Positions 9,014 to 44,200 of a stretch of DNA of 64,000 nt are shown one piece after another. The position numbers and the translations under genes were made by a program. Every line of letters starts with the position of its first letter. Within the stretch, counting starts at the first letter, position 1. This DNA is from Polytrichum commune (taxonomy: Eukaryota > Streptophyta > Polytrichopsida > Polytrichales > Polytrichaceae), in NCBI GenBank assembly GCA_950295325.1, contig OX485806.1:18228001-18292000 (forward strand). The letters are read 5' to 3'. Under the pieces are notes generated by a model, which saw nothing but the letters and a program-made list of their open reading frames with translations, made no database searches and was not told where the DNA came from.

Positions 9014-9639
9014 TTATATCTACAATGCACACTGCATGCACATCTAAGAATCAAGGAGAAAGTCGAAAGGGGTTCAAAAATAGAGACAGCAACCCAAGAA
9101 AGCAGGATCCCCTGAAGGTTGACTGCTTGAATGTCGGAACGCGAAGGTTGAAGCCCAATCTTAGCTAACGACTATATTCGGCAAACGTATGCTCGATGTC
9201 ACTCGGCTTAGAGAGAGAACGTGCAAAACGAAAAGGAAATTTGAAGCTTTTAAACGTGATGTCTCCTCCTTTACGCCAAAGCGGCTTGGAACCGGGGTGA
9301 TTGAACAAAGCGAGATGAGCAGCTTCTCCGCGGTGGCCATGCTCCAGGGTTTCGACAACACTTGGGGTGATAGGAATGTTCTTTGTAGGAGACACGATTT
9401 GCATATGAAGTGGAGCTGGAAAAGGCAATGTAGTTAGGTGGGCAAGCCCCTTTGTGGGTTGTTTTGGTGGCTTGGGGGTTGTCTGTCCTTGGCCGGTGGG
9501 GTGGGGTGGGTCCTTGACTTGGTGGGTCCGGGGAGTTGTCCTTGGTGGGGTCGGTTCTTTCATTTCTCCTTACATGGCAGTGTTTCGCGTCCGAGGGGTC
9601 CCGCCTCCCCTTAGTGGGGGCGCGTTTTCTTGTTTTTAA

Positions 9640-18601: not shown

Positions 18602-20329
18602 TTATGTTGTTGTTTTAGTGATCAACTGAATGCCATGTTGGGCATCCACCGGTAGACATTTCTTCAAGTAAGGGACGCTGTCCAGAACGAGCTTGCCGTC
18701 CACATTGTGATCATAAGGGCACTTGAAATTGTCCACAGGAATTTGGTAGCAGGTATCTGCAGTTTGAGCGCGAATGCAAGGCTCCTTGCTGTCAACTCGG
18801 TTGTCGATGAACCAAGGGGTGAGACCGCCATAGCCCTGCGCTAATCCACCGAATGTTGACAACGGCGTGACAAAGAGGTAATCTGAAAAACTCAAACTCA
18901 AAACTTCCGCAAGAGCCTGCTTATCTTCTTCCAGGTTGAATTGCTGCTGTATCCCATGCGTGACCTGCGTTATGCCAACGTACTCCATCGGCGGAGGGTT
19001 TCGGTTGTAAATCTCAGAGAGGAAATCGTGTAGGCTTGAGAACAGAGAGGTGATGTAAACCCTAGTTTGCTTGATCTCTGTAGACGGAGCAGCCTCGGCA
19101 ACTTTCGGTGCTGGATTTGTCTCGGGAAGGATTTTATTATCCAACGCACATTTCAGAACTCGCTCTTCAATCATTTGATGATTCTTGTTGAAGTCATCCT
19201 CCCCATAGCGGTAGCGGACTTGGATGCCGACAAGGCGGTCTGCAGTTTTCATGTAGACAGAGTAAATCTGCTCCACTCTTCGCCATACCGCGTCAGAGGG
19301 GAGCATGGCAGAGCGAAGAAGATGTGTCAGAGCCATCCTGTCTGGGAAAAGTTCCTCCAACACGGGGCGGAACGAAGGGATGGCGAAGAGCTTCGGCAGG
19401 AAGTAGAGGCAGCCATTAATGTAGAGCCAAGGGATGTGACCCAAATAAGATTGTTCGGTGTCGCAGAAGAATCTTGCACCCGGCTGACACCAATCATCGT
19501 TCGCCACAAGGGCATGTATGGCACTCACTCCATCCGAAGTTTTTAAGGTTTCAGCCTCATCAACAACTTTGTAGAACACATCCTTCATGCTCCAGAACTT
19601 ATCATTGCCTGGACCGTATTCCGGGGTGAACTGATGCTTGGTGTCAAGCAGCCACGATGAGCCTTCAAAAGGCTCACACATGATCCCCGGAACCAGAGTC
19701 TCATCTGGCACCAAGAACACTCTCTGCGTTAAGATTGCATATAACAGGCCTGACACCATGGACAACACCTTGTTCCCTAACCCTGCCCTTGGGGGAATCC
19801 CTCCAACAAGGAACCGACACCCGCTGTTGTTGCTCTTGCTCAAAAAATACTCTGACATGTCATTCCCGATGTTCTGCGTGCATATTCGATGCAGCTTCTC
19901 GTAATCATCGAACACCTGCTTCCACTTCGAATTCGGTGCCACATCTTTCGTGAGCTTCCGAAGTGCGTAGAGAGGCTGCAGCTGTTCCCTGCTCTTGCAA
20001 GGGTTCCTCTGCCGCCAGAGATTCCTGTCGCTCGCACTGAACTCCGGCTCTGGCCTGCCCTGGAGTGCGTGTTTGCTTGCGTTCCGGATTGAGTCGATGA
20101 GAGAGGCAACGTCAACCACGTGCGCCTTCTCCTCTGGCAGGGGATTGAATATCGGTGTAGGTGCCGGTTGCACCATCACCGAAGTGCGGGGAACTAGGGT
20201 AAAGATGATAAGCCCCAGTCCCAGAAGCGCCAGAATCGAAGCTGTTCGAACAGATACATAGCGCGAAGGAATGCCCGGAGGCGACCATCGCGTGATCTCG
20301 TGAAGTAGTCCCGTGGGTTTAGAAATCAT
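18602..20329 (-). CDS. Xyloglucan-type alpha-(1,2)-fucosyltransferase (GT37), single exon
   Basis: Plant GT37 enzymes move fucose from GDP-fucose onto galactose of cell-wall polymers (xyloglucan, arabinogalactan proteins) in the Golgi. The 575-residue product fits a type II Golgi protein: short cytosolic N-terminus, one membrane anchor (residues 26-46, SILALLGLGLIIFTLV), a Pro-rich stem, then the catalytic domain. Family motifs are clear: GLGNKVLSM (about 184), CEPFEGSSWLL (about 218), VGIQVRYRYGED (367-378, the GDP-fucose-binding arginine motif) and STFGGLAQGYGGLTPW (491-506). Several cysteines follow near the C-terminus as in relatives. I place the start at the ATG at 20329: the frame extends to a TTG at 20359, but a TGA lies two codons before that. 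The frame is open throughout and GC-richer than the surroundings. The exact acceptor cannot be told from sequence. Confidence 0.93.
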   Translation of the reverse strand: MISKPTGLLHEITRWSPPGIPSRYVSVRTASILALLGLGLIIFTLVPRTSVMVQPAPTPIFNPLPEEKAHVVDVASLIDSIRNASKHALQGRPEPEFSASDRNLWRQRNPCKSREQLQPLYALRKLTKDVAPNSKWKQVFDDYEKLHRICTQNIGNDMSEYFLSKSNNSGCRFLVGGIPPRAGLGNKVLSMVSGLLYAILTQRVFLVPDETLVPGIMCEPFEGSSWLLDTKHQFTPEYGPGNDKFWSMKDVFYKVVDEAETLKTSDGVSAIHALVANDDWCQPGARFFCDTEQSYLGHIPWLYINGCLYFLPKLFAIPSFRPVLEELFPDRMALTHLLRSAMLPSDAVWRRVEQIYSVYMKTADRLVGIQVRYRYGEDDFNKNHQMIEERVLKCALDNKILPETNPAPKVAEAAPSTEIKQTRVYITSLFSSLHDFLSEIYNRNPPPMEYVGITQVTHGIQQQFNLEEDKQALAEVLSLSFSDYLFVTPLSTFGGLAQGYGGLTPWFIDNRVDSKEPCIRAQTADTCYQIPVDNFKCPYDHNVDGKLVLDSVPYLKKCLPVDAQHGIQLITKTTT

Positions 20330-21545
20330 CGCTTCAAACCACGCATCACCTGTCCTCAAACCTCAGAAGTCGAAAGCCAATTCAAAGCTGAAATCTTCCT
20401 TAAATCCTTCCTCCTCGCTCCTTTTGGATCTGAATCTTCTTCCCAGGAATTGTCAAGTACCGTATAAGTTCCTGACGCCAAACTGAAGAAGAAGAGAAGA
20501 TGAATCAATCATGCAAGAAAAATCTCTAAAACATAAGTTCTCATCTTGTGCAACCTAGATGCGCTCTACCAAAGTTCCCCAGTGTTGCAAATGCGCAGAT
20601 TTTCGGCCAGAATTTCATCACAAAGATATAACAGGTGCCAAGGTGGAGAAGTTTTATTTGCCAGCGGATGATCAATAAGCAGCCCTGGAGCGGATTCAAG
20701 ATCACATTCAACTTCAACGTAGCGACAGCTCCGCACTGCACACATGCGTGCCGATGGCAAGTCTACTAAAATTACTCCCCTAATTATATCCCGCCGCATA
20801 CACCCCTCAGAACTAATTAGCTAACAACTAGGAAAGGCCGCACTGGCCTTGAAAACAAATTATTGCAAATTCAATATTCGTACTTAAGCTTACATACAAG
20901 CAGACGAAGAGCTCTTTCGGAGAAGCAGAAGACGACTCGTTTTCTCCTCGTCGATGTAAGTAAGGCACATGATGATGGTAGTCGCTGACCATAACCCTCC
21001 ATTAGTCAAACAGGCTCTTCGTAAAACCCTGCTGCCACAGCTTCTATCTAGTGCGCACGCACCACGTGAGCTCAGCAGCATATTGGATTCTGCAACCCGT
21101 GTTCAGCTCAACTCGGACTAGGTATCCATCCTCCATCCTCTTTAAATCAGAAACTTCCGATGATCCATGCATGCTCCACAGAAAGTCGGGGCCCAGGAAA
21201 CTCCCCTGCACCTGCTACACAGAAACGAGCCCGGCTTTTCTTTTATCGCCGAACACCTATTACTACCCTATCCAAGGCTGCCATTCAAGGTGACTCCGGT
21301 GGACATAGGAGAATCTATCAGATTATTTAAGACACCAGATTCTTCTCCGAAATGTTTCCTGGAAGTTGTTGCATTTGGGTCTCATATTCCGAGCATCTAG
21401 CATTTTTTTGAGTTTGAACCTCCCATTGACTTTCTACCCAGGAATTAGTCAGCATCTACCGGAGACTTTAATTAAGCTATGAAACGCTTGGAGTCCGGAC
21501 CTCCCGCGTGAAGGTTTGAATGTTGAAACATCGCCGAATGGTTCT
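20330..21545. other. 5' leader and promoter region of the fucosyltransferase gene
   Basis: The first 150 bases upstream of the ATG are purine-rich on the minus strand, as in plant leaders. Beyond that the sequence to about 21400 is less AT-rich than the repeats and has no repeat partner in the window, so it is probably unique host DNA. I could not place a TATA box or leader intron with confidence. Confidence 0.4.
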
Positions 21546-30200: not shown

Positions 30201-31069
30201 GGACCATCCCCTTGCTTAACCATTCAAATAATAAAAATCACATTCACACAAGATAGATTTGTGAGGGTTGCCCTGGCCCCTATCTAGCTCCCCCTGAAAG
30301 CTCGTAGGGGGGGGAGGGTTAACTTCCCCCCTTTGACTCTCGGTGATGAAGCTTAAAGTTTTTGTTCCACTATAGAACAAGCTTAGACAAATAAGAAATT
30401 GCATGTGATTGGATTTTTGTAAAGTATGTGAGCCTATTGTGGGCATTTCCAACTCCATAGATGTAATGGGGGTTGGATCAATGGGCTGCATAACTCATCA
30501 TTTTGCTAGCATCTCCCTGGGGGCTGCACCTTTCATAACACATACAAGTACTCGTGAGTGCACAAAAGGGATATTATTTCAAACTTTTATGTACTACGAA
30601 TACATATCCTACACAAAATATAACTCGTAATTATGTACATATATGGAGGACTTCTAGAAAAAATATATAACATTTGTACTTGTATGGTAGGGTTAGTAGA
30701 CTTCATGGGACAAGTATTTAATATTGAATGAAAAAAGGATGAATGATTTCTCATTTCCTTATGCATGTGGTTGTTATGCAAATGAATAAACAAAGTTATT
30801 GTATTATGATTTTGATCCAAGGTAATTCGCATGGGTAAAGAGGCAACCCATTGGCATGTATGAGTGTAAGGTGGGGAGTGCTATCTTATGAGCGGTGAGC
30901 AATGAGCGGTGAGCGATGAGCGGTAACTTATGAGCAGTGAGGAAGATGAAAATTTTGGTAATAGGGCCACCAATATCCTATAACCGTGGAATTGTGGCCT
31001 TAAAAATGATGATTTTAGGGTTTAGTAATAAGAGGGTTGAGAAGGATAAACAACATGAAGTCCAAAAAT
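30201..31069. other. No gene recognised; short GAGCGGTGA minisatellite at 30887-30942
   Basis: A G-run lies at 30307-30316. The 30887-30942 stretch repeats GAGCGGTGAGCRATGAGCGG-like words about four times. The left end of the large element at 31070-41176 should lie in or before this stretch, but I could not identify a TIR. Confidence 0.4.
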
Positions 31070-34000
31070 TTATTCATCAGTAGTAGCACTAGACATGAAA
31101 CTATCTTTTGCCTCGTCATCTATATATATTCGAGCACCTTTGCATTGCGAATTGATTTTGGAACTATAGCAAGATTCTTCATTTGGATCCGAATCTTCGA
31201 GATTCAACATTGCAATTGCAACATTCTCGGCATATGATGGGAGACGCGGGCTACGGCTTGGACTTCGTAGGAATTGTCTATGTGCCCAAAACGGGAGACA
31301 TGTCCTCTTTCCAATCGTATTCCTGAAATCAAATCGATTAAACATGTAAATAATGTGAAGAAATAAAAATGAACCAATGAATTGAATGAAACGAATGAAA
31401 TGAATAAAAATTTATTGTATTAAAACTTACTCACACTCAAATTCAAGCATCTCCTCATCTGAGAGGTTATCATCTTCTTTTGTGAGATCTTGTATATTCT
31501 CCTTAGATGACCCCTCTTTCAAAACGTTTTCCAAAAGCGGTTTTAATATGTGCTCAAACATGTCATTATCACCCTCAAATGCAAGAAGATGTCTGCCACA
31601 TGCGCGTGTTGCTAGGATAGAAGCTCCAGTGGAACATGTCAAATCAACAACACGTCCATTCGATGGTGTAAACAATTCAATAAGATCTTGAAAAAAAATG
31701 CGGCGATTTTTGATATGGCCCCCTCCAAGGTCTTCCCGATTTTTGAAGAAGCATGTTTTTTTCATCCACAAAATTGAAAAGCAAGTTTTTGCTTTTCAAT
31801 CCAGTGCCAAAAAAAGTGGAATTTGGTTGTCTCGTGGATTTTGTGGTAGTAAAATCTCTTACCAAGACATGAGCCATAAATGCCGGAGTCTACAAAAAAA
31901 TATAAATTGTGTTAAAACTATATACAATGCAAATAACACCAAAATAATTAAATAGAAACAATTGTGATGTATTATATTTACGGTGTAGGTTGGAGACTCC
32001 GGATCCTTGAACACCATGTACGAATTGAGGCAAATAAAAGTCCTAAGAACTTTCATGTTGCCGTTGTGTAAGGTTGAATTCAAAACCTTCTTGGTTTGCA
32101 TATCGATAGCAGAAAATACTATGAGGACGTCATCATCAGACAAGATGGACTTGCACAAGGACATTGTTGCAACCATCCAGTTGTTGTCATATTTATTCCA
32201 AAGAGGAATTTCAGCAGGTCTATTGGAGAGGTTGAAGTCAAGACCGTCGGGAAATTGCAGAAAAACCAAGTTAACGGCAAATGGAGTCGGACTTCCCATG
32301 ACATGAAATTCGCGATTGTCTTTGAACTGAAATACCACAACATATCATAATATAAGACACAAAATAAAATCCAAATGAAAGTAAGAACATTACAGAAAAT
32401 ACCAAAACAATAATACTTACGTTTTCAAGAAATGTCCGCCATTGGATCCACTCAGGAGGGCCTACTTCAACCCCTTCAGACTTGTTCTTGACAGCAGTAG
32501 ATCGAGCAAAAGAGAGCGTGAGAAAGTTCTTCAGTATGAATAACTATTTTCTCAAAACATTCGTTGGCGCACAATGAATAGCGTCATAGGTGCTCGAGTA
32601 ATGGAATTCCAATACATCGCACCTAGACTTTGAACTTTCGCCTCCAAGTGGATTCTTATCCAAATCATTGGAAAGAATAAGCAATTCTTCATGTTGTGAA
32701 ATTTCCGATTGATCTTGTATTTTGGTTTCAGGAACATGTTTCCTCTTACGACGTTTTGTTTCTTTTGGTTCTGGCTCTCTAAGTTTAAGCTGTACAATTT
32801 GTGCTTGCAAAATTGCAGTATCACGAGGATCCACATTTTTAGCATCATTTATCTGACGGATTGTCTTCTCAATTGACGGACATGCATCCTTAGGACAATC
32901 AAGATACCAACCACAATCCTCATAGTGTGGGAGCGACCAATCCAAACAAATCTCAGTAGTGAACATGCATGAATCTCCTGCACCAGTGTCACGCCAATTT
33001 GGGACAAAACGAGGTTCCCCTATAACGCATTTATGTGAAATCAAAACATATCGAAAATACCTACACACAAAAATATTGTAAGTAAAATATTCCATGACAA
33101 TTGAACAAATGGAATAAAAAAAATCAAAAAAATAATAAAATTAGGTTGTACATGTATAATACACGTTTCATAGCAAGATCAATATTAGGTTGCTCATCCC
33201 AACCGTTGTGTTTTTTAACTTTTCCGCTTAGGAATTCACGATAAAATATTGAATTGAAAGCCGCAAACTTTCAGGTTTGGATATACTCGGAGAGAGTAGG
33301 CACATCTGCAGGCAACTGAAGAGGAGATGAAAGAATACTTTGAAGCTCTTCGATAGCATTTTTTTTCCAACTGTGCCCAATATGTAGACTTTGATAACCA
33401 ATCATCAAGTGCAGAATCAGAGAGGGGCGATTTCGGGAAATGCAATGCATCTTTGTCAAATCTATTGCCATTCCAAAGCTTGAGCCATCCAACTTTGACT
33501 TCTGCATCCACATTACTGACAGCAACACGATGAAGTTTCTCTTGTAGCATTTCAGGCACCGAAAATGAACCCCAATGGTGTTTAACTTCTTCAAGGAAAG
33601 CAGAGGTAAGGTTGATATCGGCAATCGCTAGTTGTTTCGTAAAACTATAAGATAACATTGCACGTTTTTTGTTGACAGCTTCGGACATTGCTTTTGAAAC
33701 TCCGTCTGATGTCCGTTCAAGAGGATGAATTTCATTGTACTGGTTAAGAGCAATATCGCTAGCCTCAGCAAGTTCTTGCTGAAAAATCAAACAAAAGTCA
33801 ATATTTATAAGTTCATATAGATGTAATGTAAAATGAAGGTGAATAAACATAAGGCACATATTAGCAATGGTAGAAGAACTTACACTGTACATGTAATCCA
33901 AAAAAATTGGTCGTGTAAAATAATACCAAATTTCGACGGACTTCTCCTTACATCGTTTATAACTCTTTGGATCCAGTTGCTTTCTGAAGGAAGTCAAAGA

Positions 34001-35163
34001 CATGGTGCCAATACTTTGCATCCGATATAAAGTATGCACCAAATTGGTGGATACGTGAGAATTTTCGGTTGACCTAAAAGAAACATTAAATTGATTAGAT
34101 TCATGATGATATAATTTGGAAAACAAAATATAAACTAGAAATAAGTGTAAAAAAATAGGTAAGAACATTACTTGTTGATGTCATGCATAGCAGTCAATAA
34201 ACTTGGAATGTCGTCAGGCTCGGGCGCCAAAATGATAGAATCTACAAAGACATAACGTTCATAATCTTCGGTATATACGCGGTCAATATAATTTTTCCAA
34301 GCAAGAAATCTGTGATTACCATCCCATATAAAAAACATCTTGTTCTTGTATGACGTCAATGACAAATCTGTATCCAATTGAAATTCAAACAGGGCATTGG
34401 CTTGAGCCCAATTTGGACTCCAAGATGCGCAAACCTCATCATCCACGAATTGAAAGTTTTTCTTAGAATCGGTGGCCGATATATAAAACACACGGTCACC
34501 ATTGAAAAAATCAGCCTCCAATTTAGTAATGTCACCCTTCAAAGCAGGACGCACAATCGGCATAGGAACCATGCGACATAAGGGTACACGTAAGCGAGCA
34601 TTAGGTCCAGCACGGATTGAACAAATTGTGGAAGTGGAATTGACCTTTCGTTTGTTCGTAAGCTCCCACACTTTCTCTTAATAAGTTTTATTCTCACCAT
34701 CATTATCTTCATCTGAGTCAAAATCATCGAGGGATTCATTTATTTTTTTCTTTTTCTTATTATGAAGATATGACGATATGTCCTGATGATGATGAACTTG
34801 TTGAGATGGACGATCTTGAGTTGAATGCATTGTGGAATCATCATCAGTAGAAATAGGAGTCGTACTTTCCAAATCCATTGATTGGTCCTAAAACAAATGA
34901 AATAAGTTTCATAAATATTTCGAAACAAATAGTAACACATTAGCAATAACATTACAAAAACAACAGCAATAGCAACAACAATAACAACAGAATACCACGA
35001 ACACAGGGAATAATAACAAAAATTATTCTAAACACAACCATTTGCACCTTTAAATATTGTACGATTAGGGTGGCCGCTCCCCCAAAATTACAAGGCCAGA
35101 ACCTGTGCGTTAACGCACAGGGTCTGTCCGTCCAACTACAGGTCTAACAAAATTGGACGCGAG

Positions 35164-35377
35164 GTTTGGGTCGAACGACCCAAACCATACTCAGAGTTTG
35201 GGTCGTTTGACCCAACCTAGGTAGACAATTTGGGTCGAACGACCCAAACTAGGCACACAGTTTGGTTCGAACGACCCAAACCATGCTCAGAGTTTGGGTC
35301 GTTCGACCCAAACTATGCTCAGAGTTTGGGTCGTTCGACCCAAACTAGGCACACAGTTTGGGTCGAACGACCCAAAT
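35164..35377. repeat. Array of seven 20-bp palindromes (TTGGGTCG type)
   Basis: Seven units of TTTGGGTCGTTCGACCCAAA or its AA-centred form are separated by alternating short spacers (CATRCTCAGAG and CTAGGCACACAG). All lie inside intron 1 of the ParB-methylase gene. The same palindrome occurs about three times at 40039-40130 in the transposase gene. Confidence 0.9.
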
Positions 35378-35591
35378 TGTCCGCAATTTACGCCTGAATA
35401 TGCGCAATTACCCAGTCACCACGAAAGTGCAAACAAACCTTGTACTGCACCTGTAGATGAGAGAGCTTGCAGCGATGAGCTCAAGTCCGACGGAGGAGAG
35501 AAAAAAAACTGAATGCTTTGGGGTTGTGGCAATTTATACTACTTGTCCATGCAGCCATATTTAGCTTGGCTCTTCGTGGCCCCACATAGCC

Positions 35592-35657
35592 GCTAGAAAG
35601 TTGCCAGCGCAGACCCTGTGCGTTAACGCACAGGGTCTGCGCTGGCAACTTTCTAGC
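35592..35657. repeat. Perfect 66-nt palindrome
   Basis: From GCTAGAAAGTTGCC to GGCAACTTTCTAGC every base pairs with its mirror around the central GTTAAC (between 35624 and 35625). The centre is the 18-mer CTGTGCGTTAACGCACAG found throughout intron 1. Confidence 0.95.
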
Positions 35658-36120
35658 CACTATGCGTTAGCGCATACACCCTGTGCGTTAGGGCATAAGG
35701 CCTGTGCGTTAACGCACAGGGCCGAGACGTAAATCTGGAATTCGTAGATTTGCCAAAACTTGTAAAATCTGGAAAAAAATGCTAATGGGGTCCAAATAAA
35801 AAATTAAAAAAATGTTATATTATCTAAATCTTCGTAGCTACAAATTCTTCTCATATTTTGTTTTGGTTTGAAATGATTTTCTTTTCTCATTCTTCTATCT
35901 ATTTCCTTGTTTTGGGCCACCTCGTAGATTTTGGATTTCGGGGCAAAAAAAATTTATGCTATTTTGTGTCATTTTCTAGCTCCTATAACATATTGCATGA
36001 GTACTTGAATAGTCATATTTCTCATTTCTTGCATTCTAACCTCGTTTTCAATAGTTTTTTTTGCTCCTATGTTCTGAACATCGATTTAAATTCATACAAT
36101 AGATATTTGTTTTAATTTTA

Positions 36121-36870
36121 GGCTCTCCTAGTCGTTTTACCTCCCAACTTTTGGCCTTCCTAAATTGCTCTTCCAAACCCTGTGCGTTAACGCACAGGGT
36201 TTTACCTCCCAATTTTGGCCTTCCTAAGTTGCGCTTACAAACCCTGTGCGTTAACGCACAGGGTTTCTCCTCCCAACTTTTGGCCTTGCTAAGTTGCGCT
36301 TACAAACCCTATGGGTTAACGCACAGGGTTTCGCCTCCCAACTTTGGCCTTCCTAAGTTGCGCTTTTAAACCCTGTACGTTAATGCACAGGGTGTCTCCT
36401 CCCAAGTTTTGGCCTTACTATGTTGCGCTTACAAACCCTATGCGTTACACACAGGGTTTCTCCTCCCAACTTTGGCCTTCCGAAGTTGCTCTTACAAACC
36501 CTGTGCGTTAACGCACAGGGTTTCACCTTCCGACTTTTTGCTTTCTAAATTGCTGTTATAAACCCTGTGCGTTAACGTACAGGGTTTCACCTCCCAACTT
36601 TTCGCCTCCTAAGTTGCTCTTATAAACCCTGTGCGTTAACGCACAGGGTTTCGCCTCCCAACTTTTTGCCTCCTGAGTTGCTCTTATAAACCCTGTGCGT
36701 CAACGTACAGGGTTTTACCTCCCAACTTCTCGCCTCCCAAGTTGCTCTTATAAACCCTGTGCGTTCTCCTCCTAACTTCTAGCCTTCCTAAATTTCTGTT
36801 ATATACCATGTGCATTAACGTATAGGGTTTCTCCTCTCCAATTTATAACCTCTATAAATTGCTACTAAGT
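36121..36870. repeat. About 11 tandem units of 64 bp, each with a GTTAAC-centred palindrome
   Basis: Each unit joins a palindrome (CTGTGCGTTAACGCACAG, extended by AAACC and GGTTT) to the spacer YCTCCCAACTTTTGGCCTTC and AAGTTGCKCTTAYAAA. Six or so palindromes are perfect or near-perfect; those towards 36760-36870 are degenerate. Further single copies lie at 35102-35121 and 35690-35720. The array is in intron 1 (34888-36954) of the ParB-methylase gene, about 0.1 kb from exon 1. Confidence 0.92.
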
Positions 36871-37236
36871 GACATGTGAGTGAACGTAGAAGGTTCTCCG
36901 TCCTAACTTACAACTTATGCACTATCAAATTGTGTGAACATTGAACTGACTTACCTTTTTGTTTGTCGTCTTCTTTGAACCCGTCTTCAATTCGGACTCT
37001 GATATACGATCGTCTACATCTTCTTTGTTCTTTGCACCTTCATCATCCTCCATCGCATCAAAATCCAGTGTCTTCACAGTTTCTTCTACCGTACTCAACA
37101 AGTTTCTTTTCCATTCTTTTTTTGCATCATTCTTTCCCACATTGAGTCTGAACCTCTTTTTCTCGGAAGTGAAATACAAAGTTTTCTTACGTCTTCTCTT
37201 CGGCCTCACAGATGTTCTCTCTACATCGTCCACCAT

Positions 37237-37748
37237 TGTTGGTGTCTATGATATGTTTTCTATCATTTATTCTTCCAATGTATCTATCTCACAAAATCCG
37301 GCGTATATTACAATCACATGTTGTAATTGGCGTTCAATAAACGAGATATTTCGACGCGTTTGTCATTATGTGTTTATTTTTGTTATATCCGCCAAAATTT
37401 TCTGACACCTACTTTGTTCTATTTATAATGATCAATAATTTATTTTTCCAACCAATTTTAATTCTTTCTACATCTACGTCAGTCCACACATATATATTTT
37501 AAATTTCTATCAATACTTTTAGTATTTCACGCCGTTTTGTATATATCTTGTTCGTAAAAAGTCTCTGACTATTATTGTATTATGTCCACTTCTGTATTAT
37601 TAGATGTTATGTATCACACACTTTCATCTCCATCCATTATTGTATCACATGTTTTCATTTCCATTCATTTCCTCACACAACTCTATACAAAAGCAACATT
37701 CACCCCATATTTTTGTGATGTGTTGTTCATATGTTCTTTTGATTTTTT
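37237..37748. promoter_or_regulatory. Shared promoter region between two divergent genes
   Basis: The 512-bp space separates the first ATG of the minus-strand ParB-methylase gene (37236) from the first ATG of the plus-strand transposase gene (37749). It is AT-rich with several TATA-like words (for example TATATATTTT near 37490), but no single box can be chosen. The head-to-head layout would allow joint expression. Confidence 0.5.
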
Positions 37749-40700
37749 ATGGCTACCATTAGAGCTCATGGATCTTTTGTTCCCTTCATTTTGCCACTAC
37801 AAGATGATGGTCATGTGAGTGTTTCAGAGGATTTACTTAGTTTGAGATTCAACCTCCAGATAGGAATTATGTATTTAGAGCATGAGATGTACTCTGCAAA
37901 TGGAGAGGTGTATGAAACGATTTTGGTTCCAAAAAATAGAACTGATGTTGGTTTTATGTGGATCTTAGGACCTGGTTCATTTAGGGTAATAGGACTTTCT
38001 GAGTCTCAGATGCAAGCTTCAACTGTCATTTTGACAAACGAATCCGGTACATCCACAGTTCAAATTCCCTCTATCACACCTGTTATGGTGGAACCCCTTG
38101 ATGATAGTGTGTTTGTGCTATCAGATTCAGAAGATGACATTTGTGCATCTGTTGATCTTTCAAACACATCGTCATTTCCATTTAGAAGTGTTCATTCTAT
38201 TCCTTCCCAACTTCCTATACATGTAGCCAAATCCCCTTGCAGTCTTATGTACAAGAAGGTGGTTCCCCAAATCTCACCTTCTCAACGTCCTCCACTACAC
38301 CCTTCACCTTCATCTACAGGGTTGACTATGGTTGATGCCTTGAAGCTGACAAAGTTAAGAAAAAAATCAAAGTCCGATCTTGCATCCATTGATTTTGACA
38401 GTATAGATGTTCGAGAAATCAAGTACTTACCATCTTCTTTTAATGGTGATGTTTTATTTCTCTTGCCTCCTGTGGCACTCAAAGCTCCAAATACGTATGG
38501 TCGCTCAATGGACGGCATGGACAAGATGTGCGACGGTCACCCTTGGTGCACCACCAAAACCACCAATATCGAAAATGACTTTGGACTGTCCTTCCGGCGC
38601 TCTACTTGTGTTGGTCATCTCCAATGTCATAATGACTACTGTTATTACATGAATCGCAATGGGGGCCTCCGGAACAACACTGAATGGGTCGGTTCAACTC
38701 CTATCCCATTTGTTGTGGGTGTTGTTCCCCCTACTAAGTCCACTGTCGAGTATAAGGTATGTCGTTCCACACCTGTGTGCATTGCTTTGTGTAATGCTCG
38801 AATCATATACATCCACTCCACATCCGTTGGAATATCTAGGGCTTGCATTCATCTTGGTGTACATGATCACCCTGTGGCCAATGGCACATGCCGTGAATCA
38901 TTGGACATGGCATACCAATGCGTTGCAAATGAAGTTTTGAAAACACCCATAGCAAAAAATTCAGCCATAGTTATGGCGGCGAGCAAACAATTTTTGGCCG
39001 ATTACCTTCTCAAATCTCCCGCAAATGTCGAAGGCCATCACTTGATTGGTTCATCCCTAGAGGTCGTCATGGACAAATTCAGCACTCTTGCTTCTCCAAA
39101 TTGTCGTAACTTTGTATCTGGATCAAAGCGGTTTTTGTGTAGTGGAATAGGAACTATGGATAGTATTATGGCGCTCAAAGACCACTCTGCTTTCAAATTC
39201 GTCCATGGTAGTCGGTTCCCATGGCAGTCAAAGAACAAAGTGTTTGTTTTGAAGATGTCTGTAGACCTTCCAGGTAGTGGTGTGGAGCTTGTGAAGAGGA
39301 TGCAAGTCGGTGGGGATATGGAGAATTCATGGATTATGTTTGACCATGTCAAACGTTTGAAGGACTGGACGACCATGGCTTGCCATGTGTACGACAGTCG
39401 ATACTGTAAAGTGTTGACTATTGCGTGTTGTGATATGCAATCTGAAGATGGTGCAGCACAAATTCTCTTTTGGAAAAATTTGAATGCTGTCATGGCAGAT
39501 AATGATGTACCAAACGTAAACTTCAAAGGATTTATGGCTGATAGTGCTCAAGCTAATTGGAATGCGGTGAGGGCGATTTACGGGGATGGTGATCCAAGTC
39601 TACCCATGGTTGCACGTGAGCGTACATGTCTTTTCTATTGGTCCGCAAGTTTGGATAAGGTGACCCAAAAGTATATCAAACCATCCTTGCAATTTCAACA
39701 CAAACAAATATGCAAGGATTACAAAGACGCGAAAACAATGGACGACGCTGAGACCAAGTACCATGTGATTCGTTCTTGGTGGTTGTCATCTGGAGCTGCC
39801 TCCGAAGAAGGCATCATTAGCCTTTCAGAGTGATTGGGATTTTGGCACTTTCGTTACAGACAATGGGGTGGCCATATGCTACTTGTAAGTACATATCAAA
39901 CTTCATTAGTCAATGTAATATATCCTATATTTTTCTTATCTTTGTCTTTCTGTGTTGTTCATAGGATATGATAATAAAAGAACGTGCGGGAATGCCAATA
40001 TGCAACCTTGCAGAGACTGTACATAACAAACAACAAACTGTTTGGGTCGTTCGATCCAAACCTTGTAGGCAGTTTGGGTCGTTCAACCCAAACGTGGCAG
40101 CCATTTTGGGTTGAACGACCCAAACCTAGATATATAATCTATCTTATGTTTGTCTTATCCTTGTATTTGTGTGTTGTTCATAGGATATGACAATAGAAGA
40201 GCGTGCGGAAATGCCAACATGCAACCTTGCAGAGACTGTATACAACAAATGGCTCCAACAGTCCGGCAACAAGATGACTTGTTTATATGAAGCTACAGTG
40301 GACGACATGATCCGTGCCTTCATGCAAATTGCAAATTACCGGACATGGTTGAAAGGGGGGTCGGATGGTAAAGGTCCTGATTCGGCATCCTTGAAACTCA
40401 AAGCGGCTGCCAGGTGTGGAGATCCAAAAATGTTGGCCGATGCCATGAAGTCTTATCCAAGGGCAGAAGACGTCAACACTAGAGATTGTGCATTGGAAGG
40501 GTCAGAGCTCTTTGGTTCCACCAAACGCAAACTCAACCTACCACCGGGTGCTGATTGTGACTCTCATCGACCCGACAAAGTGAACTATTCCATTCCTCGT
40601 CCCAACACCCGAGCAACTCGTCAACGCATAGAGGAATCGTTGAGTTCTACAATTCATGGTGTGGCTCATACTACATCCGTGTTAGAGACAGATTGTCTTG

Positions 40701-41176
40701 CTTCCAAGTGGCACATTGCAAGATTACCACCCAACTCAGCCAAACGATGTTGGGCACTGCAGGCCATCACAAGGACTATGTGCAATGCCAAAGTCGGGAC
40801 TGGGAAACATGGCACACCTGCTCCAACATACAAAGGGCTCAGGAAGGAATTTCGCACTCCCAACAATGTGGAGTATGAATTTTGGTTTTGCCCTGACGAC
40901 ATCAAACGTTGTGTGAGTGGCAATAAGAAGAAATATGTGTTGGACTGGCCTATAGTACCCAACACATGGCCGGTGAAGATAGGTACCAATCTATTGCGAG
41001 AGGAGGTTTTGGCACTTGAAGATGTTGGATTTCAACTACAGCAGAGGGAGGCATTGTCCCCTCGTCGTAGGCTTTCAACAAATCGCAACTCTCCCCATCC
41101 CTCGCTCGCATTTTTCTATGCCACCAAACCCGGACGCCCACCCTACATTCAGGTTTGGGAAGACAGTGCGTCGTAA
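37749..41176 (+). pseudogene. Mutator-like transposase with GCM/WRKY-type zinc finger, two exons, one stop
   Basis: Exon 1 runs 37749-39884 and exon 2 40184-41176; donor GTAAGT and acceptor TTCATAG join in phase 0. About 1,040 codons. Order: a Ser-rich N-terminus with an acidic patch; a zinc finger (residues 287-374: CVGHLQCHNDYC, then CIALC and CIHLGVHDHP), the GCM1/WRKY-related type found in some Mutator-like transposases; a DDE nuclease region with VYDS (about 549), FMADSAQANWNAV (about 598) and RTCLFYW in place of the usual 'C.WH'; then FWHFRYRQWGG and, in exon 2, MPTCNLAETVYNKW. A TGA at 39831-39833 sits where a Trp codon would fit and is the only stop in the spliced frame, so decay may be recent or a base may be wrong. 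The C-terminus beyond 41150 is uncertain because a retroelement abuts it. Confidence 0.72.
39917..40248 (+). repeat. Duplicated intron end and exon 2 start, with palindromes between the copies
   Basis: 39917-40030 and 40131-40248 both contain the intron end (GTGTTGTTCATAG) and the first 20 or so codons of exon 2 (ATGCCAAYATGCAACCTTGC, AGAGACTGTA). Between them, 40039-40130, lie about three TTGGGTCG-type palindromes. Splicing to the first copy would read into the palindromes and stop; splicing to the second continues the transposase frame. Confidence 0.88.
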
Positions 41177-41249
41177 TCCAACAACACCGCTAGCGGATCA
41201 CAAAAACAAATGGGAGAGCGCCGGACTCATGGAGGGTTACTATGTGGTT

Positions 41250-44200
41250 GGGGTCACTGTTGATACCACCCAATTGGGGTAAACCTTTTCACGTCTATTG
41301 TGATGCTAGTAATGTGGCAATAGGGAGTGCGCTTTGTCAAGCAACGGGAGAAAAAGAGAAGGATCAACCTATAGCTTATGCGAGTAAGCAATTGACCCCC
41401 GCCGAAAGAAACTACTCTACAACGGAGAGGGAGTGCCTAGCCATGGTGTTTTCCGTTAAAAAGTTTAGGCATTACCTCATGTGCAACCCGGTTGTATTTT
41501 TTGTTGACCACATGGCTATCAAGTATCTAATTAATAAGGCGGAGTTAAGTGGTAGGTTAGCTAGGTGGGTTTTGTTATTAGAAGAATTCGACTACACGGT
41601 GGAATATAAACCGGGTCGTATGCATTTACAAGCGGACCACTTGTCTAGGTTGTCGGAGGAGATAGGAAAAAATCCGGTAAATGATATGTTAGTAGATGAT
41701 AGCCTCTTTGTGGTCACTTCTACACCGGAGTGGTATGCGGGCATAGTGGAATTTCTAACAACCCACAAGTTGCCCAAAGAGTGGACAAAAGAAGAGAGAA
41801 GGAAGGTGAGGGTAAATAGTAGGCAATTTGTTGTAGTGGGCCATAGGTTGTTTAGAAGGGGGTCCGATGGTATTTTACGACGATGCGTGTCAAAAACGGA
41901 GGTTGAAGCGATTTTAATCGCTTGCCACGATAGCGCTTGCGGCGGTCACTTCTCGGGTCAACTCACCGGGCAAAAAATACTTAGAGCGGGCTACTTTTGG
42001 CCTACACTATTTAAAAACGCCCATGACTATGTAAGGAAATGCGACGCTTGCCAACGGTATGCCCGAGACGACCTTAGAATGGAGATGCCTTTACATGTAT
42101 CATTACCCTTAATTCCTTTCGAAAAATGGGGCATCGACTATGTGGGTGAGGTCCATCCCCAATCTTCAAAAGGAATGAAATATATTGTGGTGGCAACCGA
42201 GTACCTCACCAAGTGGGCGGAAGCCAAAGCGGTGAAGACCGACACGGCGGAACACGCGGCAACATTTATGTACGAAAACATAATTTCGCGGTTCGGGGTG
42301 CCGAAGATCCTAGTAAGCGATAGGGGTACTCACTTTTTGAATGACTTGATTCGAGAGATGACAGAGAAATTTAAAATTGATCACCGGAAGACTACTCCCT
42401 ACCACCCACAAACCAATGGACAAACGGAAAGGGTTAACGGAATTTTGGTGAGTATACTACGCAAGACGGTTATAGACTCGAAGCGGGATTGGGATACGAA
42501 ACTAACGGCGGCACTTTGGGCATACCGTACAACCTATAAGGTAACTACGCGTGCTACACCATTTTCCTTAGTCTATGGTCTTGAAGCGACACTACCAATC
42601 GAATATGAAGTCGAGTCACTTAGGGTGGCCGTGAGTACGAAACTTACCGAAAGTCAATCCTTACGAAATCGACTAACCGATTTGGAAGCACTTGACGAAG
42701 GGAGGAGCATGGCGGCTCAACATATTGAGGCAATCCAAAGAAGGAGAAAAATTACTTTCGACAAACGACATAAGAGAAGGGCCCTAACACCGGGAATGAT
42801 GGTCATGATTCAAGACGCACGAAAGCTTGAATTTCCGGCGAAATTCAATGCGGTATGGTTAGGACCTTACCTTGTCTATGAGGTCTTTCCTAATAATTCA
42901 ATTCAATTGGAAACGTTGAATGGTGAGCTCTTTCCTACCCGTACATCGGGAAGTAGATGTAAGGAGTACCGAGCTTGACTAGGCAACTTACCCTTGGAGC
43001 AAGAGATGTTTGGATTCATCCCCCGATGGTCGCCAATTATGTGAGCCCAAAAGGGTGCCCACATTTAGTCTTAGACCCTTGAAACGTTAGTTGATGCACT
43101 TTGAAGTAGCATGTTACTTCACAAAAATATAAAAAGAGTGAAATGTTAGTCTTAGAAGTACCATGTTGTAAGAGGCTAGGATGTGAGTTGTTATTGTGTT
43201 TTTACCTTCGGAAGGATTTGAATGAATGAGGATAGGTAAGGAGAACTTGGATTGAGTAGTTAGTGAGTAGGCTAGTACAAATGGATGGAGACAACCAAAG
43301 TGACTCAAGAGGCAAGTGCATTCGAATTGGGATGAATGGAGGATCACATGGAGCGCACAAGTGGACCACCTCATCATGGCCACTTAATGGGGAAGGCCCA
43401 AGGAAGAATGCAAGGTGGAGGATAAGCAAATTCTCAAAGCACCAATCAAATCACGAGTTAAGCATCGTGGTTTGAATTAAGTGGTGAGCGACGATTTGGA
43501 AAAGTAAGGGGAGAAAGTTATGGCGGCGGAAAGCGAAGGAGGCTAAGTTTGGGTTGAAGCATCCCAAGTTTGGTAAAGTGTGGTAGGTAGAAAGCCAAGG
43601 CTAGTTAAATGTTCGAATTAGGATCCTTGTTGATCATTTGAGGGAGGAAGGCTTAGAAGATAGGATTGGCGCCTACTAAGTAGGAGGAAATCTCAAGGGC
43701 TTATCGTGAGCCTTGAGGGTGCTCACCCCCTCAAGCTTACTATATAATCCCTCATTCTTCCCTCACTCATCCTCTCTTTCCTTTGTGCTCCAAGGCACCC
43801 CACGAGTTATAAGTGTGGGTGTGGGAAGCCATATTGGAGCACATGTGTGTGCTTAGTTTTTAGTTTGAGAGCCAAGGCTTGTTAGCCTTGAAGAGGGCTT
43901 GACCTCTTGGTAGAATTAGTGTTGACGTGAAGGATTTTAAAGTTAATTCATGATTCCAATTTGTGGTACTTAAAGTTCATGTTTTGAATACACGTGGTTG
44001 TAAGTTCCATGTTTAAGAGTTGAGCACTTGATGTTGTGATGAGTGCAAAAATATACTTGTGTGGATTAGTTAGTCTTAGTGAAGTTAGGAAATTCTCTCT
44101 CCCCCTCTCCTCTCTAGGATTTTAGGATTTTAGGATTAGAGAAGAATTGTGTGATTAGAAAGGGGTTGTTAGTAGAATTAGGGAAATTAGGTAGGAAGAT

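Follow-up and report, generated by a model that had tools for sequence, protein, structure and literature searches.

Gene structure of the window copy

The window analysed here is a stretch of 64,000 nucleotides from Polytrichum commune (C4:18228001-18292000, within a searched genome of 407.8 Mb). It contains two spliced genes arranged head to head, one for a Mutator-like transposase and the other for a partner protein with ParB-like and methyltransferase-like parts. Their start codons are separated by a 512-bp intergenic region (37237-37748, no strand assigned), a putative shared promoter region, and the two divergent spliced genes about 0.5 kb apart of the initial annotation are thereby confirmed. 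We lean towards the view that the locus is what is left of an abundant Mutator-like DNA transposon, in a copy that is dead and has lost its right part, a judgement passed jointly on this and on the function proposed below for the partner.

The partner gene occupies the minus strand as eight exons (37236-36955 and 34887-31070), whose borders are identical in other copies. Exon 1 (36955-37236) is rich in Lys and Arg and is followed by a long intron 1 (34888-36954) that contains arrays of two palindromes, P1 and P2. Exons 2 to 8 (31070-34887), which have counterparts in other copies, run from E2 (34887-34171) through E3 (34072-33884), E4 (33778-33163), E5 (33059-32421), E6 (32326-31982) and E7 (31889-31430) to E8 (31321-31073). 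E2 is the ParB-like exon, and E6 and E7 together (31430-32326) encode the permuted DNA methyltransferase domain. On the plus strand, transposase exon 1 (37749-39884) encodes an N-terminal Cys/His domain and the first two candidate catalytic Asp residues of a putative RNase H-like core. The intron (39885-40183) holds imperfect P1-type repeats at 40040-40127, and the frameshifted exon 2 (40184-41259) includes NLAETVYNKW, whose Glu is a candidate for the third catalytic residue. A duplicated piece (39913-40030 and 40132-40249, 87% identical) brackets this P1-type array and spans the transposase intron and the start of exon 2.

The window copy retains the left end of the element at 30873, where the left terminal inverted repeat GGGGAGTGCTATCTTATGAGCGGTGAGC (30873-30900, plus strand) is common to the copies, and ATGAGCGGTGAGC-type subterminal repeats extend from it to 30941 on the same strand. 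The right end has been replaced by a fragment of a Ty3-type retrotransposon (41260-42978, plus strand), which spans RNase H to integrase according to its Pfam matches. The transposase gene had at first been ended at 41176, but its coding sequence continues in another frame and similarity to other copies persists until 41259, within exon 2, which ends short of the C-terminal SWIM-type finger present in relatives. Both genes of the window copy contain in-frame stops and frameshifts.

The gene pair forms one mobile unit

Nine further copies of the same family, here called family A, were fetched, picked mainly for an open ParB-like exon. The transposase and its partner lie head to head with similar intergenic spacing in all nine, although some of these copies are also broken and the transposase of copy c5b is shortened. 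Comparison from copy to copy revealed sharp shared ends, GGGGAGTGCTATCTTATGAGCGGTGAGC on the left and GAGGGAAGCTATCTTATGAGCGATGAGC on the right (reverse complement), which form 28-bp terminal inverted repeats identical at 23 of 28 positions. Each of the eight copies with both ends is flanked by a perfect target-site duplication, 10 bp long in seven and 9 bp in c2a (10 with a one-base shift). The element measures 11.4-12.6 kb, or 13.6 kb in c5a, whose extra length seems to be an insertion. The common ends, the target-site duplications and the conserved gene pair show that this is one mobile unit. The initial annotation had suggested that both genes belong to a single element and had named head-to-head copies between shared termini as the test; such copies, with target-site duplications, are what the genome contains.

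The pairing also holds at a wider scale. A genome search with the ParB exon was scored for the best 150 of 1157 candidates and one with the transposase for the best 144 of 1595, so that the resulting lists are lower bounds. Once 15 rows of a related family B (42-44% identity) are omitted and six fragment rows lying less than 1.5 kb from another are merged, 129 listed ParB-exon loci are left, and for 89 of them a divergent transposase lies no more than 20 kb away, at a median distance of 4.4 kb; a single locus has a transposase in another arrangement. In 1000 shuffles of the positions, such divergent loci averaged 0.45 and never exceeded 4. From the other side, a partner gene accompanies 90 of the 144 listed transposase matches.

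Family B is defined by a ParB exon 42-44% identical to that of family A, and a divergent transposase was recognised by eye at 2 of its 15 listed loci, at distances of 6.6 and 7.6 kb. The introns of this family (loci L030 and L031) contain different palindromes, with a 2-bp centre. A tenth locus fetched, c6a of family B, is without the family-A pair and looks like a nest of elements. The neighbourhood L028/L029 (C6:9563400-9583399) has a family-B ParB exon together with transposase exon 2 and a SWIM finger within 20 kb. It also contains long repeat arrays of an 85-bp type, and a third methylase-like paralogue is represented there by exons with the motif DVPE.

The transposase

The transposase matches 74 database proteins at 30-88% identity. 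An alignment of 20 proteins has conserved Cys and His residues followed by a core in which Asp 599 is invariant and Asp 533 almost so, and a candidate third catalytic residue was placed by eye in NLAET, where exon 2 begins. The longer relatives P0008, P0072 and L001 finish in what appears by eye to be a SWIM-like finger. The transposase had earlier been credited with a GCM/WRKY-type finger: the conserved Cys/His residues across the 20 proteins bear out part of that description, but the GCM/WRKY label itself found no Pfam match and is unconfirmed. A Pfam scan of the transposase open reading frames gave no match, and the SWIM finger of P0072 scored only E=0.17, below the cut-off.

A structural model of P0072 has a mean predicted local distance difference test (pLDDT) score of 55.6, with residues 101-320 mostly at 80-94. 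Foldseek returned no match to this model at E<=0.001. Among the 50 best of 831 matches, the ISCth4 transposase, which we take to be of IS256 type, alone exceeds a probability of 0.2 (0.97 and 1.00); for a model with a pLDDT of 55.6, these matches have E values of 0.007-0.01 and template modelling (TM) scores of 0.26-0.27. Three hemophore entries stand above it in the list, with probabilities of 0.14-0.16. Taken with the conserved Asp residues and NLAE, the match leans towards a DDE transposase with an RNase H-like fold, of the MULE/IS256 type. Membership among the Mutator-like elements (MULEs), whose target-site duplications are 8-11 bp long, is therefore based on the duplications, the motifs and the ISCth4 fold match rather than on Pfam. 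A Pfam match is not essential to the MULE superfamily; its absence leaves the subfamily unnamed.

The element resembles MuDR, which carries MURA and MURB, and other Mutator-like elements in the Cys/His region at the N-terminus, in a candidate RNase H-like core and, in relatives, in a SWIM-like finger at the C-terminus, as well as in its 9-10 bp duplications and its second gene. It differs from MuDR in its short 28-bp terminal inverted repeats, its ParB-plus-methylase-like partner and the lack of a Pfam transposase match. No relative of the transposase was found in the viral contigs searched. One contig, L001 (CADCWO010000080.1), is filed under an uncultured cyanobacterium; because it encodes a two-exon relative of this transposase, it looks like eukaryotic contamination of its assembly.

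The partner protein

Five copies of the partner gene were read exon by exon. All eight exons are open in c1a, c3b and c5a, with a base changed ahead of exon 8 in c3b; c1b is interrupted by stops in exon 5, and c7a by one where exon 3 begins as well as by a frameshift within exon 7. Relative to c1a, the ratio of nonsynonymous to synonymous substitution rates (dN/dS) of the partner is 0.14-0.38 in all seven pairs and that of transposase exon 1 is 0.34-0.52. Comparisons among c7a, c2a and the window copy, all of them degraded, give 0.58-1.04 for the two genes. The partner gene is under purifying selection.

The methyltransferase-like domain, earlier read by eye, has gained profile support. Exon 7 matches PHROG DNA methyltransferases (PHROG 3008, E=6.6e-5; PHROG 67 was also hit) and, by tblastn, 11 records of phage DNA methylases (E=3e-3). 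An hhalign comparison of exons 6 and 7 from three copies with three phage methylases gave E=6e-7 and a score of 51.8, against at most 18.3 in 20 column shuffles; the aligned part is E7 only, where 75 columns around motif I are 33% identical. Neither Pfam nor NCBIfam has a significant methyltransferase match to the partner. The spliced protein found no match in the protein database either, probably because each exon has been predicted there as a short protein of its own.

Motif I (DLTCSTG) and FEGDND lie in E7 and the motif IV position (FLQFPDG) in E6, which places motif I at the C-terminal side of the motif IV position, as in the permuted (beta-class) methyltransferases; the permuted module is a likeness to phage DNA methylases. 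Active N6-adenine and N4-cytosine DNA methyltransferases have a motif IV of the form [DNS]-x-P-[YFW], in which the aromatic residue faces the flipped base. By eye, and outside the hhalign match, the three phage proteins read DLPYG at this position. Four of the five family-A copies read QFPDG and c3b reads QFPNG, family B reads DIPEG and the third paralogue DVPEN (all by eye). None of these three families has the pattern of active enzymes: where the aromatic residue would stand there is an acidic one (Asn in one copy), and in family A the motif also starts with Gln. Because the catalytic motif IV is changed, base methylation by the partner is doubtful.

These observations bear on one alternative, in which the partner would be catalytically active and would mark its own element by methylating adenine at N6 or cytosine at N4, with sequence specificity provided by the ParB-like part. 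Motif I and the fold match agree with this, as do the purifying selection on the gene and the likeness to what parts of PMC12477816 propose for a Sola1 element. However, the DLPY of the phage relatives has become QFPD or QFPN, DIPE and DVPE here, and the aromatic residue that would face the flipped base has given way to an acidic one, or to Asn in one copy, so that we consider such an enzyme unlikely.

The ParB-like stretch of family A, FFIWDGNHRFFAW, lies in E2 (34171-34887), where a WDGNHR motif was found by eye. This single exon has 75 homologous database proteins. Its fold model is poor (pLDDT 50), and a fold search with it gave no match at E<=0.001. The ParB-like assignment of this earlier exon is weakly supported.

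Palindrome arrays in the introns

P1 has the form GTTTGGGTCG-NN-CGACCCAAAC and occurs at 9231 genome sites with any centre, against 0 for the reversed control. There are 1000 sites with a TT/AA centre and 444 sites of P2, CCCTGTGCGTTAACGCACAGGG; their reversed controls also gave 0. In the window, intron 1 holds a P1 array with a 32-bp period (35164-35376) and a P2 array with a 64-bp period (36134-36765), neither assigned to a strand, with additional P2 sites at 35102-35121, 35592-35657 and 35701-35720. The second of these is a 66-bp perfect palindrome centred on P2.

Ten elements, 116 kb in all, contain 177 perfect palindromes (arms of 8 or more, centre of up to 2). The 84 kb of flanking sequence has 27, of which 16 sit in a P-type stretch (see below) beside c1a. 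The window has 13 within the element and 6 in its remainder. Eight elements have 13-25 each, versus means of 0.5-0.95 after dinucleotide shuffling. Within the ten elements, with default bounds for the window copy and c5b, which have no right end, relaxed P1 sites fall in intron 1 (61) and in the transposase intron (16) and nowhere else, and all 54 P2 sites fall in intron 1.

Units with a period or spacer of 32, 35, 36, 57 and 158 bp all contain identical 10-bp arms around a free 2-bp centre. The number of array sites differs between copies, which would suit a second alternative: a partner that assists transposition, as MURB does in MuDR, and palindromes that have no connection with it and grow in introns as selfish minisatellites. 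The second gene of MuDR is a precedent for it. Identical arms across differing periods and two gene families, however, are not predicted by slippage alone, and we give this account little credence. A chance-captured, Pack-MULE-like passenger gene is more improbable by far: capture of genes by MULEs is known (parts of PMC9168764 describe it), but the gene structure is constant across copies, dN/dS relative to c1a is 0.14-0.38, and a family with a 42-44% identical ParB exon has a divergent transposase at 2 of 15 listed places.

P2 is closely tied to family A: for 45 of the first 50 listed sites, a listed family-A gene is no more than 8 kb away, where 0.7% would be expected. P1 is more widely spread. 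Of its first 100 listed TT/AA sites, 38 lie within this distance and 62 beyond it, and the idea that P1 is exclusive to the family-A element was rejected. These 100 sites form 34 clusters on C1 (below 42.5 Mb), 15 of them by family A. Among the 19 clusters away from family A, eight adjoin a listed gene of another family, family P (null mean 0.1, maximum 2), one more (L032) lies by family P as judged from its sequence, and ten are without an assigned gene. P1 was absent from IMG/VR viral contigs.

Family P is a second high-copy gene family, which combines ParB-like and methylase-like motifs with arrays of P1; the best 150 of 947 candidates were scored. Its ParB-like stretch is FWLIDGQHSVEASKK, a fragment of which gave one PHROG match, 'ParB-like partition protein', at a weak E=0.014. 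Its methylase-like motif, GDCIFNVFGG (by eye), had no profile match, and the ParB-like and methylase-like exons of L036 had no match among phages. Two of three loci fetched solely for P1 encode family P, namely L032 (C1:3967500-3973500) and L036 (C1:41527000-41536999).

A proposed role in self-recognition

With modest confidence, and from sequence comparison, we propose that this MULE encodes a transposase and a divergent ParB-like/methyltransferase-like accessory protein that may bind palindromes of its own element. The protein would bind the P1 and P2 palindromes kept in the element's two introns, in analogy to bacterial ParB on parS arrays, and binding could allow it to recognise, cluster or protect copies of its own family. 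The methyltransferase module would perhaps serve in DNA or S-adenosylmethionine (SAM) binding and not in catalysis. P1 is accordingly named here only as a proposed parS-like site. The likeness to bacterial ParB-parS consists of a ParB-like motif and palindromic arrays beside the gene; unlike that system, the element is eukaryotic, spliced and integrated, its ParB homology is weak, and the link between site and gene is one of co-occurrence.

A broader form of this hypothesis, which we regard as possible but distinctly more tentative, is that of a eukaryotic transposon self-recognition system assembled from prokaryotic parts. It would consist of a ParB-like domain fused to a methyltransferase fold that may have lost its catalytic motif, and of intronic parS-like palindromes, one of which would be common to two element families; the system would gather or shield the dispersed copies of a family. 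The initial annotation had suggested that the partner might mark, hide or organise its DNA. The methyltransferase fold and the selected gene are in keeping with marking or hiding, but the catalytic motif is altered in three families; the palindrome arrays would lend indirect support to organising.

Several observations weigh against the binding proposal. For the ParB-like part of family A, the WDGNHR motif that prompted the assignment is present, but no significant match was found in Pfam, PHROG, NCBIfam or PDB. Among the matches listed, 39 of the 129 ParB-exon loci and 54 of the 144 transposase matches are without a partner; 46 of these 54 rank below 72. An hhalign comparison of family A/B with family P returned a probability of 1% and no significant alignment, so that the palindrome common to A and P finds no explanation in a demonstrated relationship between the ParB-like parts. 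The third locus fetched for P1 alone, L037, contains repeats and short open reading frames and no family-P gene (its repeat-array sequence also occurs in the P-type flank of c1a), and 5 of the 13 listed family-P matches in the same C1 stretch have no TT/AA P1 within 8 kb. The 48 distinct P1 variants have 480 pair positions, of which 412 are unchanged. One arm alone has changed at 63 positions, both arms in a complementary way at 4 and both in another way at 1; because compensatory changes are so few, the evidence from them is thin. Finally, the arrays are palindromic minisatellites, for which replication slippage can be an alternative route to expansion.

The closest published case is Sola1-1_Ec32 of Ectocarpus, a giant DNA transposon in which, according to passages of PMC12477816, a protein with ParB-like and N4C/N6A methyltransferase parts is encoded on the strand opposite the transposase. 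The same passages propose that accessory proteins bind and modify their own transposon, and cite green and red algal cases (Iyer 2011, Petroll 2025). The element described here likewise has a partner with a methyltransferase domain, on the strand opposite the transposase and within common termini. It differs in being Mutator-like, 11.4-12.6 kb long and in a plant-like genome, whereas Sola1-1_Ec32 is a Sola1 element of 21.5 kb (PMC12477816), and also in its altered motif IV and its intronic palindrome arrays, of which the passages found make no mention. Searches of the open-access literature listed neither a case from a land plant or a MULE nor palindrome arrays of this kind. New here are the occurrence of a ParB/methylase-like partner in a MULE and the palindromes as candidate binding sites; it is these sites, together with the change in catalytic motif IV, that give the element its interest. 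If the palindromes are binding sites, the published idea that accessory proteins act on their own element becomes testable with a short defined sequence. If the proposal is true, this would be a eukaryotic mobile element with partition-like DNA recognition and thousands of candidate sites in one genome.

Elsewhere in the window, an open reading frame at 18602-20362 resembles, by eye, a plant xyloglucan-type fucosyltransferase.

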